Shown here piece by piece: positions 1-13,025 of a stretch of DNA of 33,177 nt. The stretch is from a virus. The stretch lies in IMG/VR virus record IMGVR_UViG_3300014913_000044, positions 1 to 33,177 of that record; one strand, given 5' to 3'. The position numbers and the translations under genes are program-made. A model generated the notes under the pieces. It was given only the letters and a program-made list of their open reading frames with translations, had not been told where the DNA came from and made no database searches. Numbering within the stretch: position 1 is the stretch's first letter; the number at the start of each line of letters is the position of its first letter.

Positions 1-1
1 A

Positions 2-133
2 GGTTCTAAGGCGAAAGGTGTCGGAACTGCTGTAGGTTCTAAGGCGAAAGGTGTCGGAACTGCTGTAGGTTCTAAGGCGAAAGGTGTCGGAACTGCTGTA
101 GGTTCTAAGGCGAAAGGTATCGGAACTGCTGTA
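2..133 (+). repeat. Four tandem 33-bp in-frame repeats
   Basis: Four head-to-tail copies of a 33-bp unit lie at 2-34, 35-67, 68-100 and 101-133. The first three are identical; the fourth differs only at base 119 (G to A, Val to Ile). The unit is in frame with the gene ending at 322 and encodes the 11-residue peptide GSKAKGVGTAV. The array touches the window edge and probably continues upstream. Identity at silent positions points to recent expansion or active homogenisation. There are no spacers, so it is not a CRISPR array. Confidence 0.97.
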
Positions 134-322
134 AGGCGCGAGGCCAAGGATGTGGCTTTCGACGTCAAGGAGCTTCCAGATTCTGTTCGCACGTACATGA
201 AAACTAATCCCAATGCTAAACGGAATTTAGCATTAGCGGCCGGAGGCACTGCATTAGGTGCTGGGGCGCTAGGAGCGGGTGGGTATGCCTTTTCGCGCCG
301 TGGGAAAAAGGAAGAGAAGTAG
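2..322 (+). CDS. C-terminal part of a repeat-containing protein with a Gly/Ala-rich hydrophobic end
   Basis: The reading frame is open from the window edge to TAG at 320-322; the true start lies upstream. The visible 106 residues are four 11-residue repeats (GSKAKGVGTAV type, basic and small-residue rich), a charged linker (RREAKDVAFDVKELPDSV), and a Gly/Ala-rich hydrophobic stretch at about visible residues 76-97, followed by a basic tail (RRGKKEEK). The last part looks like a membrane-spanning or membrane-inserting helix with positive charges after it. Similar Gly-rich helices recur in other proteins of this window. I do not recognise the family. Its position ahead of structural genes suggests a virion or ejected protein, which is inference. 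Confidence 0.8.
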   Translation, partial: GSKAKGVGTAVGSKAKGVGTAVGSKAKGVGTAVGSKAKGIGTAVRREAKDVAFDVKELPDSVRTYMKTNPNAKRNLALAAGGTALGAGALGAGGYAFSRRGKKEEK

Positions 323-5541: not shown

Positions 5542-6246
5542 GTGCCGAAGTTATTACCAGGTAAAACTGGGAAGGCGGGGCTCCTCAAGCGTCTCGTAGG
5601 GTGGGCTAAAGCCAACCCCAAGAAAGCAACCGGAGCAACCGTTGGAGGTACTGCTGCTTTGGGGGCTGCTGCTGCGATACCAGGTGCCGCACGGGAAGGG
5701 CGCAAATTGGAGGCTGAGATCATGCAAGAGTACACCGGAGCTCCTGGTGGTAAGTTCACCTATGCGGAGCTGGAAGAGTTCAGCCAGCGCAAGAAGTATC
5801 TAGGCGAGAAGATCGCGATGTGCAAGTTGGCGTACGGCCCTCCTTCCGACAATCCTTTTTTGGAAAAGGCCGAAGGGGGTTTCGCTTCCGGCCTGGGTGG
5901 AGGAGTGGCAAAAGCTGGACTGGAGGCGCTGGGCAAGATGATTCGCGGTACTGCCACGTCACTGAAAGAGCGCATGGTTCTCGACAAGAAGCGCGAGGCC
6001 ATCGTGGATCACGTGATGCAACACGACCCAATCGTTTCGATTCAAGAGCGTGCTCAGCCCGGGTCAACGATCCAGGCGTACTCTACGATGGTGAAATTCG
6101 CTCCCACTCTTAGCACCGACCCGAACGTGGTTACTTCATTCCTCCGCGAGGCATCTCAATCGGAGGGAGGAATCAATCCTTTGACGGTGCAGCAGTTGGC
6201 AAAAACGGAAGAATCGATTAACAAGGCTCTAGGGAGGATGAGATGA
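5542..6246 (+). CDS. Protein with N-terminal Gly/Ala-rich hydrophobic helix, unknown function
   Basis: The 234-residue protein uses a GTG start at 5542 that abuts the TAA of the preceding gene; gggag about 8 nt upstream supports it. Basic residues 1-27 lead into a hydrophobic Gly/Ala segment at about 28-50 (ATGATVGGTAALGAAAAI), then a charged soluble region. The short segment EKIAMCKLAYGPPSDNPFLE sits mid-protein, followed by another Gly-rich stretch (FASGLGGGVAKAGLEALGKM). The layout suggests insertion into or association with a membrane, as for several proteins in this cluster. The stop overlaps the next start (ATGA). No family recognised. Confidence 0.85.
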   Translation: MPKLLPGKTGKAGLLKRLVGWAKANPKKATGATVGGTAALGAAAAIPGAAREGRKLEAEIMQEYTGAPGGKFTYAELEEFSQRKKYLGEKIAMCKLAYGPPSDNPFLEKAEGGFASGLGGGVAKAGLEALGKMIRGTATSLKERMVLDKKREAIVDHVMQHDPIVSIQERAQPGSTIQAYSTMVKFAPTLSTDPNVVTSFLREASQSEGGINPLTVQQLAKTEESINKALGRMR

Positions 6247-6465: not shown

Positions 6466-6837
6466 ATGCGAAAGTTCGCCCAAGACGTATCTCGCCTGGC
6501 TCACGACATCGGGAAGATGGACGTGCTTGCGGTGAAGGTGGCGTCGGAGAACGGGAGCGCGGAAGCGCAGCGTACCTGTGCCCAGGTAGCCGACGGGCTT
6601 TACGACGTAATGCTCGAGAAGGCCGCTAGCGACTGTGAAGGGGATGTCTGTGTGCTCGTGGAGAAGATGGCCGAGGCGTTGGAGATGCCCGCGATCACTC
6701 TGGAGTTCAAGGCAAAGTTGGCGGCGGCCGCTGCAGTAGACGCGGCGCTCTCTGGAAAGCCCCTCACGAAGAAGACTGCCAGCGCCAAGCTCTTCGGTCG
6801 CGAGTTCATCGCTGAGCTCTTGCGGGAAGTGATCTAG
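6466..6837 (+). CDS. Small helical protein (123 aa), unknown function
   Basis: ATG 6466 follows the previous stop by four bases, and the TAG at 6835-6837 shares its last base with the GTG of the protease gene. The protein is helical and Ala-rich, with several Lys-hydrophobic-Ala tripeptides (RKFA, VKVA, EKMA, KKTA) and three Cys residues in the middle. The direct overlap with the capsid protease suggests it is made together with it, perhaps as a core or adaptor component; this is inference. No family recognised. Confidence 0.85.
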   Translation: MRKFAQDVSRLAHDIGKMDVLAVKVASENGSAEAQRTCAQVADGLYDVMLEKAASDCEGDVCVLVEKMAEALEMPAITLEFKAKLAAAAAVDAALSGKPLTKKTASAKLFGREFIAELLREVI

Positions 6838-9800
6838 TGTTATCAAAGGTCCTACACCTCGACCCGTACTTCCCTACCGGGGAGTTGACCGTCCAGCCCG
6901 TCGTGCTGTGGGCTAATGGGCGCCCCTGTGTGGAGGACGTTACCAAGTACGCGAGTGTAGGTGATGAGTACTTCCGGACAATTCAGCCGATCCCCGGCCA
7001 TTCCATCGTTTACGTCCTCGCCGTCAGCGGCTGGGAGACGTACGGTGAGAACCGAAACGGAGATGGTTTCCCCGAATACCCCTTCAAAGAAGATGCTACC
7101 CCTCCTTGGATTGCTGCGGATGATGTTCTTCCCCTCCACTACAAAACTTTTGAGCAATACGGCTACAACTATCGGCACCACTGCTTTCCTGCTGGATCTC
7201 TAGTACTTCTTGCCAACCGTAAGCGTGTGGCAATAGAGGATGTTCAAAAAAATGACCTAGTAGAGACACTTTCGGGCCCTAGAAAAGTTACGAAAATCAT
7301 GCGGCGCCCCTACGCCGGAGAAGGCGTACAGCTTTCCTTACGGGGTAATTACCAACCGCTTACGGGGACCGCAGACCATCCAGTTCTTGTGTACCAAAGA
7401 GAACAAGTCCACTGTCCGCATGGGTACTGTTATCTTACTCTTGAAGGGCGAGGGTGTAGTACGAAAGCCTGTCAAGAAAAACGGGGCAGTATCGGAGAGC
7501 CTGTGTGGGTTCCTCTCAGTGCTGTTCTTCCGGGAGATTATCTAGTTTTTCCTAAACCAAAGCATGGGAATACTGTTGTGGACCCTGGGTTCGCGCGCCT
7601 AGTAGGGTGGGTGGCTTCGGAGGGTCACTTAGGAAAGAGAGGAAGTATACAGTTCACATTCTCTTCTAAAAATACCCTGGACATTCCTGCGGTGAAAAAG
7701 TGTCTCGAGGAAAATAATTTACATGTGGGCTTACACTCCCGCTCGGACGGTTTAACGATGGCGTCTTCCTGTTCGTCTCGAGTGCACGCGGCTCTTTCTG
7801 ATTACGTCCAAGGAGTTTTTTCGGAGAAGTCCCTGACAGAGAAAATTTTGGAGTGGGATTCTGAATCACTACTCCAAATGCTTGGTACATATATCGACGG
7901 AGACGGACACGTATGTCCTACAGGTAAGAATGCAGGGCAGCTTCGTATTAGGTCTTCTTCTCCGCAGATGTTGAATATTCTTTCAGATATAATCAAGTCC
8001 TTAGGGATCCCAGCAACAGTTCAGTGGGATATACCGGCTGGGGAGATGATCAGCCCTACTAACGGAAAACAGTATTCCTACTCGGGCTCAGGAGTAGTCG
8101 CCGTCGCAGCGGCATATTCTCCGCAAATTACTAAATACAGCCGTAAAAAGTGTGTATGGGAAACAAGAACGCCACAAACCCTCGCTGTGGGGGACACTTT
8201 TTTAGTTCGAGTGACTGACCGCGAGGATATTGTCCTAGAGGAAGAAGTTTTTAACCTCGAGGTCGAAGAGTTACATCATTACGTAGTTAACGATGTGGTA
8301 GTGCACAACTGTAACAAGGATCCTAAGAAGGCCGTCGGCAAGGTCATGAAGGCGTTCTGGAACCCGACCATGCATCGGGTGGAACTCCTGGTTGACCTGG
8401 ACAACACGAAAGCTCCCGACCTAGCTGAACGCATCGAGGCTGGGGAGTTCCCGCCGGTGAGCATGGGAACACGGGTGAAGTACGACGTCTGCAGCGAATG
8501 CGGAAATCGAGCACCGACGCGTGCCCAGTACTGCGATCACCTGAAGTTCCAGATGAAGCAGACGCTTCCGAGTGGCCGGACGGTGTGTGCTCTCAACCCG
8601 AAACCTAAGTTCTTCGATATCTCGTGGGTCTTCAAGCCCGCAGACCCGATGGCGTATATGATGAAGAAAGTCGCGGAAGCTCCCTACGAAATCTCAGGTG
8701 CGAGCGCCGGGGAGTACATCGACAAGATGGCGGAGCGAAAGCTCGCAGCCCGGAAATTAGCCGTCATCGACAAGATTGTGCAGGGCTACCCCGTCGATGC
8801 CAAGACCGAGGGCTTTGACGAAGCGGATATACACAACATCCAGGGGATGCGAGACATTGTTTTGTCGTCAGCCCAATCCACTCCGGAGCTTCCGGACGAT
8901 GTCCTACGGAGACTGTCAGCACACCCTATCAATAAGGTAATGTCTACGCTGTTCGCCGGTGGCATGTCCCTCTCTACTCCAGAGGTAGTGAAGATCGTCA
9001 TTTACAAGTCTTACCCGAAGGCTACAGTCGGTGATGATGTCCTTGATAAGTGTGTCGTGATGCAACGACCCATCATGGACTTCCTGGGTGATTGCCCACA
9101 GGTGATGGACCAGATCGAGAAAACCGGGGCTTTCGATATTTCTCCCGAAAACATCGACGTGAAGATCGCTCAAGAAGTCGACGACTACTTTGAGAAGCGC
9201 TCTGGCATCGGGCAGTATCTGAAGCGACGCCTGGTTCCTGCGCAGTGGAGAGAGACTCCCGAACCCCGAACCTCTCCGCTCACTGTCACAGATCCGGCTA
9301 CGGGAACAGTATACGGAACGACCCGGGGAGCGGCCCTGGAAGCCCACGACGAGATCGCAAAGCGAAACCTCATGAAGGTTTTGGGAGGGGGTGCGCTACT
9401 TGCAGGGGGTTACAAGGTTTTGGGGAGCGGATTAGAACGCCTTGGCCATGGAAAGTTGAAACCTTTATTGGCGCTCTCTTTGGGGACGCTTGGTGCAACG
9501 CAATGGCCCAAAATGGGGCCTCACTACATGACTGACCAGGGAGTCCCGATCCCCACCCTCACAGAAATGGTTCCCAAGCAAGCTGGGTTGCGAGAAACCG
9601 TCGGTAGGAAGGCTTCTTCTTTAGCTCTTCCAATGTTGGGGACTTTGGCAGCTATGTCTGCTTTGGGACTCGATTATCAGTCGCGGTTACGGAGGGGGGA
9701 GCCCGTAGGCCATCCTGCGTTGCCACTTTCTCGGCGCATTCTTGACAGGATGGGGAGATTCTCCTATGAGCACCCACTCATTACTGCTGCCGCGGGCACA

Positions 9801-10064
9801 GCCGCTCTGAAAGGTTTAGGCCGTGTCCCCGCAGTGCAAAAGGGCATGGGGTATGCCGGACGTGCGGGTCAGTTCGTGAAAGAGAAGGGACGCAAGGCGG
9901 CGGATAAGCTCAAGGACGCCATGCGTGGCCTGGCTGAAGACCAAGTAAAAATGTCGGAGCTTCTGGAACCTGATCTTCCTACTCCGGCCGGGACTGTGGA
10001 GCTACCTGAAGTCGACATGGACAAGATTGCGACAAAGGTTGGCCTACTCATATGGGAGGGGTGA
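6837..10064 (+). CDS. Prohead (capsid maturation) protease with intein and membrane-like C-terminal extension
   Basis: GTG 6837 overlaps the preceding stop by one base. Removing the intein (residues 116-491) gives a 699-residue protein. The joined extein reads YNYRHH+CNKDPKKAVGKV, then MHRVELLVDLD, then GEFPPVSMGTRVKYDVCSEC, and a C-x2-C-x10-C-x-H zinc-like knuckle (C552, C555, C566, H568). This is the pattern of phage prohead serine proteases: His near 114/115 and Ser542 (166 after splicing) as catalytic candidates. Such enzymes cleave scaffold and capsid proteins inside the prohead. After about residue 800 the protein departs from the protease pattern and carries Gly-rich hydrophobic segments (VLGGGALLAGGYKVLG; LPMLGTLAAMSALGL; LITAAAGTAALKGLG) and basic stretches. 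This is an unusual extension that might itself be cut off. It lies upstream of scaffold and capsid genes, the usual order. Confidence 0.85.
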   Translation: MLSKVLHLDPYFPTGELTVQPVVLWANGRPCVEDVTKYASVGDEYFRTIQPIPGHSIVYVLAVSGWETYGENRNGDGFPEYPFKEDATPPWIAADDVLPLHYKTFEQYGYNYRHHCFPAGSLVLLANRKRVAIEDVQKNDLVETLSGPRKVTKIMRRPYAGEGVQLSLRGNYQPLTGTADHPVLVYQREQVHCPHGYCYLTLEGRGCSTKACQEKRGSIGEPVWVPLSAVLPGDYLVFPKPKHGNTVVDPGFARLVGWVASEGHLGKRGSIQFTFSSKNTLDIPAVKKCLEENNLHVGLHSRSDGLTMASSCSSRVHAALSDYVQGVFSEKSLTEKILEWDSESLLQMLGTYIDGDGHVCPTGKNAGQLRIRSSSPQMLNILSDIIKSLGIPATVQWDIPAGEMISPTNGKQYSYSGSGVVAVAAAYSPQITKYSRKKCVWETRTPQTLAVGDTFLVRVTDREDIVLEEEVFNLEVEELHHYVVNDVVVHNCNKDPKKAVGKVMKAFWNPTMHRVELLVDLDNTKAPDLAERIEAGEFPPVSMGTRVKYDVCSECGNRAPTRAQYCDHLKFQMKQTLPSGRTVCALNPKPKFFDISWVFKPADPMAYMMKKVAEAPYEISGASAGEYIDKMAERKLAARKLAVIDKIVQGYPVDAKTEGFDEADIHNIQGMRDIVLSSAQSTPELPDDVLRRLSAHPINKVMSTLFAGGMSLSTPEVVKIVIYKSYPKATVGDDVLDKCVVMQRPIMDFLGDCPQVMDQIEKTGAFDISPENIDVKIAQEVDDYFEKRSGIGQYLKRRLVPAQWRETPEPRTSPLTVTDPATGTVYGTTRGAALEAHDEIAKRNLMKVLGGGALLAGGYKVLGSGLERLGHGKLKPLLALSLGTLGATQWPKMGPHYMTDQGVPIPTLTEMVPKQAGLRETVGRKASSLALPMLGTLAAMSALGLDYQSRLRRGEPVGHPALPLSRRILDRMGRFSYEHPLITAAAGTAALKGLGRVPAVQKGMGYAGRAGQFVKEKGRKAADKLKDAMRGLAEDQVKMSELLEPDLPTPAGTVELPEVDMDKIATKVGLLIWEG
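7182..8309 (+). mobile_element. Intein with LAGLIDADG homing endonuclease, inserted in the prohead protease
   Basis: The in-frame insertion encodes 376 residues. It begins with Cys (CFPAGSLVLL, block A), has the block B motif GTADHPV (Thr63, His66), two LAGLIDADG-type motifs (LVGWVASEGHL with Glu147; LGTYIDGDGHV with Asp241), and ends VFNLEVEELHHYVVNDVVVH-N with Asn376 followed by Cys as +1 residue. All residues needed for splicing are present, so it should be active. A four-Cys cluster (C78, C83, C92, C97) between block B and the endonuclease looks like an added zinc finger. The coding sequence looks more A+T-rich than the exteins, consistent with recent transfer. Confidence 0.95.
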
Positions 10065-12113: not shown

Positions 12114-13025
12114 ATGGATTATAACGTTGAAACGCCGGAAGTGACTGCCCAGCTCGTGAATTCCAGCTTCGTGCGGAAGATCGACGAAGGGCGTGTCAAG
12201 GAAGCCGCTGAGGAGAGCACCGCGTTCATCCGTGAGAAGCTCCGTCAGGAAGCGGCCGTCCGTGAGATCCTCGCCCCGGAGGGTATTTCCGAGGAAGAGA
12301 TCGACCGTGACGAGGACACGGATCAGCCGAAGAAGATCATCGACAAGGAGCCGGACTCGTATGCTACGTTCGTTCAGTTCCAAGGTGTCGGTCCCCGGAC
12401 TTGGTTCAAGGGTCCGCGGTATGCGATCTATTTCGGGAAGATCGAATCTCAGCGCTTCACCAAGGTGAAGTGGGAGCTGATGACGTACACCAGCGACATC
12501 CGCAAGATCCTGTCGGACAACTCGGTCAAGGACATGGCCGACGAGGAAGACAGCAAGTGGAACGAGCTGGTCACCGACATCATCAACGCTAACCCGCTCG
12601 AGCAGCGGACCGCTGGTGCGTTCCAGTCGTCAACGTTCAAGCAGGCTATGCAGAAGATGCTCGGTCGTCGGCGCCCCATTGGCAAGATGCTGATGACGAA
12701 GCTGCGCTACATGGACGCGCTGGATCTTCCAGCGGTGACGGTCGGTGATGATATCGCCAGCCGCCACTTCGACCAGGGCATTGAAGCCACAGAGAGGCTG
12801 TGGGGCATCCCGGTGGTGACCACCATCAAGAGCGACATTTACGACCCAGACAAGGCGTGGATCTTCGCTCCGCAGAAGCCCAACAACTTCCTGGGGAACT
12901 TCTACCTGTTGCAGGATGCTACCCTGTTCATCAAGCAGGAAGCGGACGTCATCATGTTCTGGAGCTACGAGGCTCTGGGCATCGGCGTTGGTAACCGGCT
13001 GTCCATGCAAGAAATCCAGTTCTAA
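12114..13025 (+). CDS. Major capsid protein (HK97-fold) candidate
   Basis: The 303-residue protein starts at ATG 12114 behind a strong aaggagg site. A charged, helical N-terminal part (residues 1-75, a possible delta domain) precedes the core. The core has GVGPRTWFKGPRYAIYFGKI, then GRRRPIGKMLMTKLRYMDAL, and a C-terminal block (NNFLGNFYLLQDATLFIKQE, ending SYEALGIGVGNRLSMQEIQF) that resembles the closing domain of large-phage capsid proteins. Codon use looks more G+C-rich and restricted than most neighbours, as expected for the most abundant virion protein. The order protease, scaffold, decoration, capsid supports it. A processing site after residue 75 is possible but not assigned. Confidence 0.75.
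   Translation: MDYNVETPEVTAQLVNSSFVRKIDEGRVKEAAEESTAFIREKLRQEAAVREILAPEGISEEEIDRDEDTDQPKKIIDKEPDSYATFVQFQGVGPRTWFKGPRYAIYFGKIESQRFTKVKWELMTYTSDIRKILSDNSVKDMADEEDSKWNELVTDIINANPLEQRTAGAFQSSTFKQAMQKMLGRRRPIGKMLMTKLRYMDALDLPAVTVGDDIASRHFDQGIEATERLWGIPVVTTIKSDIYDPDKAWIFAPQKPNNFLGNFYLLQDATLFIKQEADVIMFWSYEALGIGVGNRLSMQEIQF

Follow-up and report, generated by a model that had tools for sequence, protein, structure and literature searches.

Previous studies have reported that insertion after invariant residues is a general theme among inteins (PMC5050341), and genes that hold inteins at several sites are known for both terminase (PMC5050341) and MCM (PMC10643990). For the prohead proteases of phages, the catalytic set reported in T4 gp21 and SPN3US gp245 is His-Ser-Asp (PMC5694885). 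In the literature searched, from which subscription journals and preprints were largely absent, we found no description of a capsid-maturation serine protease as an intein host gene, and none of an intein in any prohead, maturation or capsid protease: the matches concerned other genes, and in the main text of the terminase study (PMC5050341) the word 'protease' occurs in a reference only. Here, we analysed a window of 33,177 nucleotides (the whole stretch of DNA under study, positions 1 to 33,177 of IMG/VR virus record IMGVR_UViG_3300014913_000044) in which such a gene is interrupted, and compared it with related genes from other viral contigs.

The interrupted protease gene

The original prediction had placed a complete intein inside a prohead protease gene of the window, and its coordinates proved exact to the base (Table 1). 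Cys1, the TxxH motif, the terminal His-Asn and Cys+1, which it had named as the splicing residues, were all found; with block F, the full set of class 1 intein residues is present (Cys1, TADH, block F, VVHN and Cys+1). Pfam profiles recognised LAGLIDADG_3 (PF14528, E 2.5e-6) above its cut-off, the splicing domain (PF14890, Intein_splicing, E 6.8e-8) slightly below its curated cut-off, and also a Hint-like N-terminus in the window ORF. The two LAGLIDADG motifs with their acidic residues are those of a homing endonuclease. Judged from its sequence, the segment is a complete class 1 LAGLIDADG intein and most likely a mobile one. Its GC3 (0.436) is lower than in its exteins (0.66 and 0.63) and lower than in all 18 other window genes tested (0.48-0.80). 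The predicted spliced product has 699 aa.

The Cys/His-containing insert in the splicing domain of the window intein includes further His and Cys residues besides Cys78 and Cys97 and is possibly metal-binding. Equivalents occur in the inteins of L127, L194, L196, L197, L201, L205 and L206, and Cys-rich inserts of a similar kind are present in inteins at two other sites of the protease family, 175 and 189 (L087).

Table 1. Features of the interrupted protease gene and its neighbourhood (window positions; residue numbers of the protease follow its intein-free homologue L002)
Feature	Position	Strand	Evidence or remark
Prohead (capsid maturation) protease precursor with intein, complete ORF, 1,075 aa	6837..10064	+	PHROG 18299 'head maturation protease', E 5.8e-9
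N-extein, 115 aa, C-terminal end ...YNYRHH	6837..7181	+	Alignment with intein-free homologues
Residue -1, invariant catalytic-type His (H114)	7179..7181	+	Identical in 105/105 distinct intein-free relatives
Predicted intein, 376 aa, Cys1 to His375-Asn376	7182..8309	+	Cys1 codon TGC, 7182-7184; Asn376 codon AAC, 8307-8309
Intein block B TxxH (TADH, intein residues 63-66)	7368..7379	+	
Cys/His-containing insert in splicing domain, Cys78...Cys97	7407..7472	+	Both Cys invariant in site-115 clade
LAGLIDADG motif 1, LVGWVASEG	7599..7625	+	Acidic residue (E or D) in 8/8 clade members
LAGLIDADG motif 2, LGTYIDGDG	7881..7907	+	D in 8/8 clade members; PF14528
Block G VVHN, C-terminal splice junction	8298..8309	+	
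C-extein, 584 aa, first residue Cys+1 (= Cys115)	8310..10061	+	Val there in nearest relatives
Ser165 (VSMG), candidate catalytic Ser	8460..8462	+	105/105 relatives; fold match to T4 gp21
Zinc-ribbon-like C175xxC178...C189xH191	8490..8540	+	Relatives have inteins at residues 175 and 189
Asp217 (FFDIS), candidate third catalytic residue	8616..8618	+	Asp in 104/105 relatives, Glu in one
Likely major capsid protein (MCP), same head module	12114..13025	+	39% identity to annotated MCP of Salmonella phage Arash

As had been predicted, the extein belongs to the prohead proteases; it has the T4 gp21/herpesvirus-assemblin fold, and profile matches, fold, the order of His, Ser and Asp and the head-module context agree on this. 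PHROG 18299 matched all 61 aligned relatives (best 3.4e-16), and Pfam Peptidase_S78 matched 5 of them (best 0.0019). An annotated head maturation protease of an Erwinia phage aligned over 152 columns (E 3.8e-13) and has the His, Ser and acidic positions in common with the window family, in the same order. In Salmonella phage Arash, the protease homologue gp222 lies upstream of the MCP gene, which is the gene order of the window. The invariant His114, Ser165 and Asp217 fit the His-Ser-Asp set of gp21 and gp245, and H114 is probably catalytic.

For the fold, a structure model of the intein-free homologue L028 was built from 61 sequences (mean pLDDT 83), replacing a poor earlier model from 14 sequences (pLDDT 56). 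The top solved structures in a VIA comparison with this model were 1vzv (varicella-zoster protease) and 5jbl (T4 gp21, over 129 residues), each with Z 9.9 and rmsd 2.9; other herpesvirus proteases followed at 6.5-8.8, and unrelated MCE-domain chains reached about 7, so that in this model the margin of the gp21/assemblin fold over unrelated chains appears real but modest. The Foldseek E value for 5jbl alone was weak (0.15), and named prohead proteases among the BFVD viral predictions matched the L028 model with E about 1e-8. A sequence profile searched against solved structures gave chance matches only. With the T4 gp21 sequence alone, hhalign gave no significant match, so that the evidence for a link to gp21 is the fold together with the PHROG and Erwinia phage matches.

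Gly/Ala-rich, membrane-like segments are common to structural-module ORFs at window positions 5542, 16154, 21114, 29863 and 30518, and stretches of this kind recur in the C-terminal part of the protease. The ORF at the left edge (window 1-140) begins with tandem repeats of the unit GSKAKGVGTAV.

With the C-extein as query, 23 relatives were retrieved from viral contigs. The nearest, L002-L005, read YNYRHHVNKDPKKAVGKV uninterrupted, and other intein-free relatives have A, Q, K or S instead of V at residue 115. Intein-free homologues, up to 91% identical over the core, lack exactly the 1,128 bases of the intein, and because they read RHH/VNKDPKKAVG continuously, both intein boundaries are fixed exactly. 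The best extein score was obtained when the flanks were joined before Cys115, with the intein between H114 and residue 115. The insertion point that had been proposed from the window (RHH / CNKDPKKAVG, beside a catalytic-type His) is thereby confirmed; the His that precedes H114 is not invariant among the 105 distinct intein-free relatives.

Residue 115 is Val in 52 of these relatives and Cys in two, and it is Cys in every intein carrier. Either local co-conversion introduced the required +1 Cys together with the intein, or the Cys had arisen before the intein came. A long co-conversion tract from a distant donor was rejected, as codon identity to L002 does not dip near the insertion. The two empty alleles that already have Cys115 (L107 and L143, RHHCNKDPKK) may be targets open to invasion, or may have lost an intein precisely.

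Inteins across the protease family

Around the active centre of this protease family, five sites together carry at least 44 distinct inteins, of which at least 42 are complete; these counts come from scans based on Cys+1 patterns and are lower bounds, not prevalence. Each site is named after the residue that follows the intein: 70, 115, 168, 175 and 189. Site 168, three residues after the catalytic Ser, is the main one, with at least 28 distinct complete inteins in the junction-pattern scan, and site 115, that of the window, has at least eight complete inteins and a partial one (L199). Inteins at site 189, the third zinc-ribbon Cys, were found in L087, L201, L216, L243 and L247; those at site 175, the first zinc-ribbon Cys, were seen as contig halves (L054/L125 and L057/L128), and site 70 is occupied in L194. 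At least three genes have two inteins: L194 (70 and 115), L201 (115 and 189) and L216 (168 and 189). On the basis of these predicted elements, this protease family is an intein hotspot.

Full-length inteins of sites 168 and 189 are about 22-27% identical to the window intein. Mapped on the intein tree, the sites require 5 changes, the minimum being 4; on the extein tree, occupation of site 168 requires 17. Empty alleles always have the +1 Cys at sites 175 and 189, whereas they have it in 78/105 cases at site 168 and rarely at site 115. Among the carriers of site-168 inteins (L114, L115, L148, L153, L173, L177, L185 and L209-L242) are contigs that had been assigned to MAGs of Planctomycetota and Alphaproteobacteria. 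Sites 115 and 168 were never seen occupied together in one gene; neighbouring inteins may exclude each other, the numbers being small.

The window intein had no match as a query against cultured phages, nor as a single-protein query against viral contigs. An alignment of five intein sequences retrieved 7 viral contigs, all with an intein at site 115, and the junction pattern HNCNKDP was matched in 6 contigs, every one a protease relative with an intein at that site. The eight complete site-115 inteins (window plus seven) form one clade with support 100/100. Seventy residues are invariant across it, and Cys1, the block B His, both LAGLIDADG acidic positions and the His-Asn pair are kept in all eight.

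On the extein tree, the eight carriers of this clade correspond to eight changes. The nearest relative of the window protease (L002, 91% over the core) is empty, as is the nearest relative (L046, 92%) of the carrier L127. Site-115 inteins are 41-57% identical and their exteins 30-72%, with little correlation between the two (Spearman 0.31, p 0.10): the window and L127 share 72% in the exteins and 49% in the inteins, and the window and L201 share 37% and 57%, respectively. An AU test did not reject the window and L127 inteins as sisters (p 0.10), so that the case for horizontal transfer within the subfamily rests on the distribution and the identities. Taken together, the spread of the site-115 intein is best read as horizontal movement.

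PF14890 matched in all seven carrier records searched, in five of them in more than one ORF, and in none of five intein-free relatives. The carrier phages are intein-rich in general, because several carry inteins in other genes. Further Intein_splicing matches lie in very long ORFs (about 1000-2900 aa) in the records behind L194, L127, L196, L205 and L201.

Probable homing and its alternatives

We consider it very probable that the window insert is a mobile class 1 LAGLIDADG intein, a selfish homing element in a conserved prohead protease gene. Empty close sisters, endonuclease residues kept in 8/8 clade members, an odd base composition, the need for eight separate changes in the extein phylogeny and the uncoupled identities of inteins and exteins all lead to this picture. 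After translation the intein would excise, with a thioester at Cys1, transfer to Cys+1 and cyclisation of Asn376, and thereby rejoin RHH to CNKDPKKAVG; the resulting protease would be intact and would have Cys instead of Val beside the catalytic His. In the DNA, the conserved RHH/xNKDP codons of intein-free alleles would be the target of the endonuclease, and repair of the cut would copy the intein in. The analysis establishes the anatomy of the element, its exact site, the protease family, the fidelity of one clade to its site and the scattered distribution, and from these we infer splicing, DNA cutting and an inactive precursor. The intein may persist because its target codes for an active site that is unable to diverge, and because imprecise loss would destroy an essential enzyme.

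Another explanation is that the inteins are not regulators and that slow splicing simply costs nothing in a protease that is idle at first anyway, which would account for the five sites. The crowding of inteins around the active centre, the genes with two of them and the heavy occupation of site 168 are in line with it. However, the scan was built around these sites, and its counts are no gauge of enrichment over other genes; the carrier phages also have inteins in other genes, with none in the five intein-free relatives; and terminase and MCM genes are likewise many-sited without such an argument (PMC5050341, PMC10643990). We regard this explanation as unlikely. Slightly less likely still is a wider proposal, in which prohead proteases are a favoured intein home because the enzyme must idle until the prohead is closed, and splicing serves as a free, sometimes adopted, activation delay. 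If that were true, its footprint would be that the His, Ser and zinc-ribbon sites were colonised again and again, each time independently.

It had also been suggested that splicing could act as a timing switch, slow or conditional splicing holding the protease off until the prohead is formed, with the phage depending on it. An inactive precursor is plausible, because the insert separates the His from the Ser and Asp; conditionally splicing inteins are known in other hosts (PMC6195587, PMC5790916), and the invariant Cys78 and Cys97 of the intein clade might sense redox state or metal. On the other hand, a needed control element should be retained in close relatives, and the sister phages with 91% identical protease cores do without the intein, as do 105 distinct empty homologues. 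A switch needs neither five different positions nor conserved endonuclease residues, the spread looks horizontal, and the mycobacteriophage TerL inteins, where tested, spliced fast (PMC5050341). The empty sisters in particular weaken a control role, which is not needed to explain the observations, and dependence on such a switch seems to us highly improbable. Homing into conserved motifs fits the invasion of five sites better, and the caveat of the original prediction, that inteins habitually sit at conserved active sites, is in our judgement the better explanation.

Least credible of all is a decayed insert that neither splices nor moves, in a protease that is dead or replaced: the PF14890 score below cut-off would suit it, but all catalytic positions are intact, the frame is open, 70 residues are invariant across the clade and the flanking protease residues are intact.

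Carriers, empty sisters, genes with two inteins and empty alleles that already have Cys115 make up a natural comparison set, which could test whether inteins exploit conserved codons only or also enzymes that tolerate delayed activation. In addition, this essential protease gene may be overlooked or broken up by annotation pipelines in many phages.

Comparison with known systems

A close parallel is offered by the TerL inteins of mycobacteriophages (PMC5050341), which are also mobile, occupy several sites adjoining invariant residues in one virion-assembly gene, have an endonuclease domain and spread horizontally; their host protein is an ATPase/nuclease, whereas here it is a capsid-maturation protease. 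The haloarchaeal MCM inteins, at four neighbouring sites (PMC10643990), are similarly a cluster of different intein alleles within a single gene, although that gene encodes an archaeal helicase and not a phage protease. With regard to the host protein, the window family has the fold of T4 gp21, phiKZ gp175 and herpesvirus assemblin, and shares with T4 gp21 the conserved order of His, Ser and acidic residue. Unlike these proteases, its members have an additional zinc-ribbon-like segment inserted between Ser and Asp and about 450 aa of C-terminal sequence, and many of them carry inteins. As in the conditional inteins of Mycobacterium smegmatis DnaB and Pyrococcus horikoshii RadA (PMC6195587, PMC5790916), splicing could gate the host protein; conditional splicing is known for those two inteins, and the analysis of the window intein gave no evidence of it.
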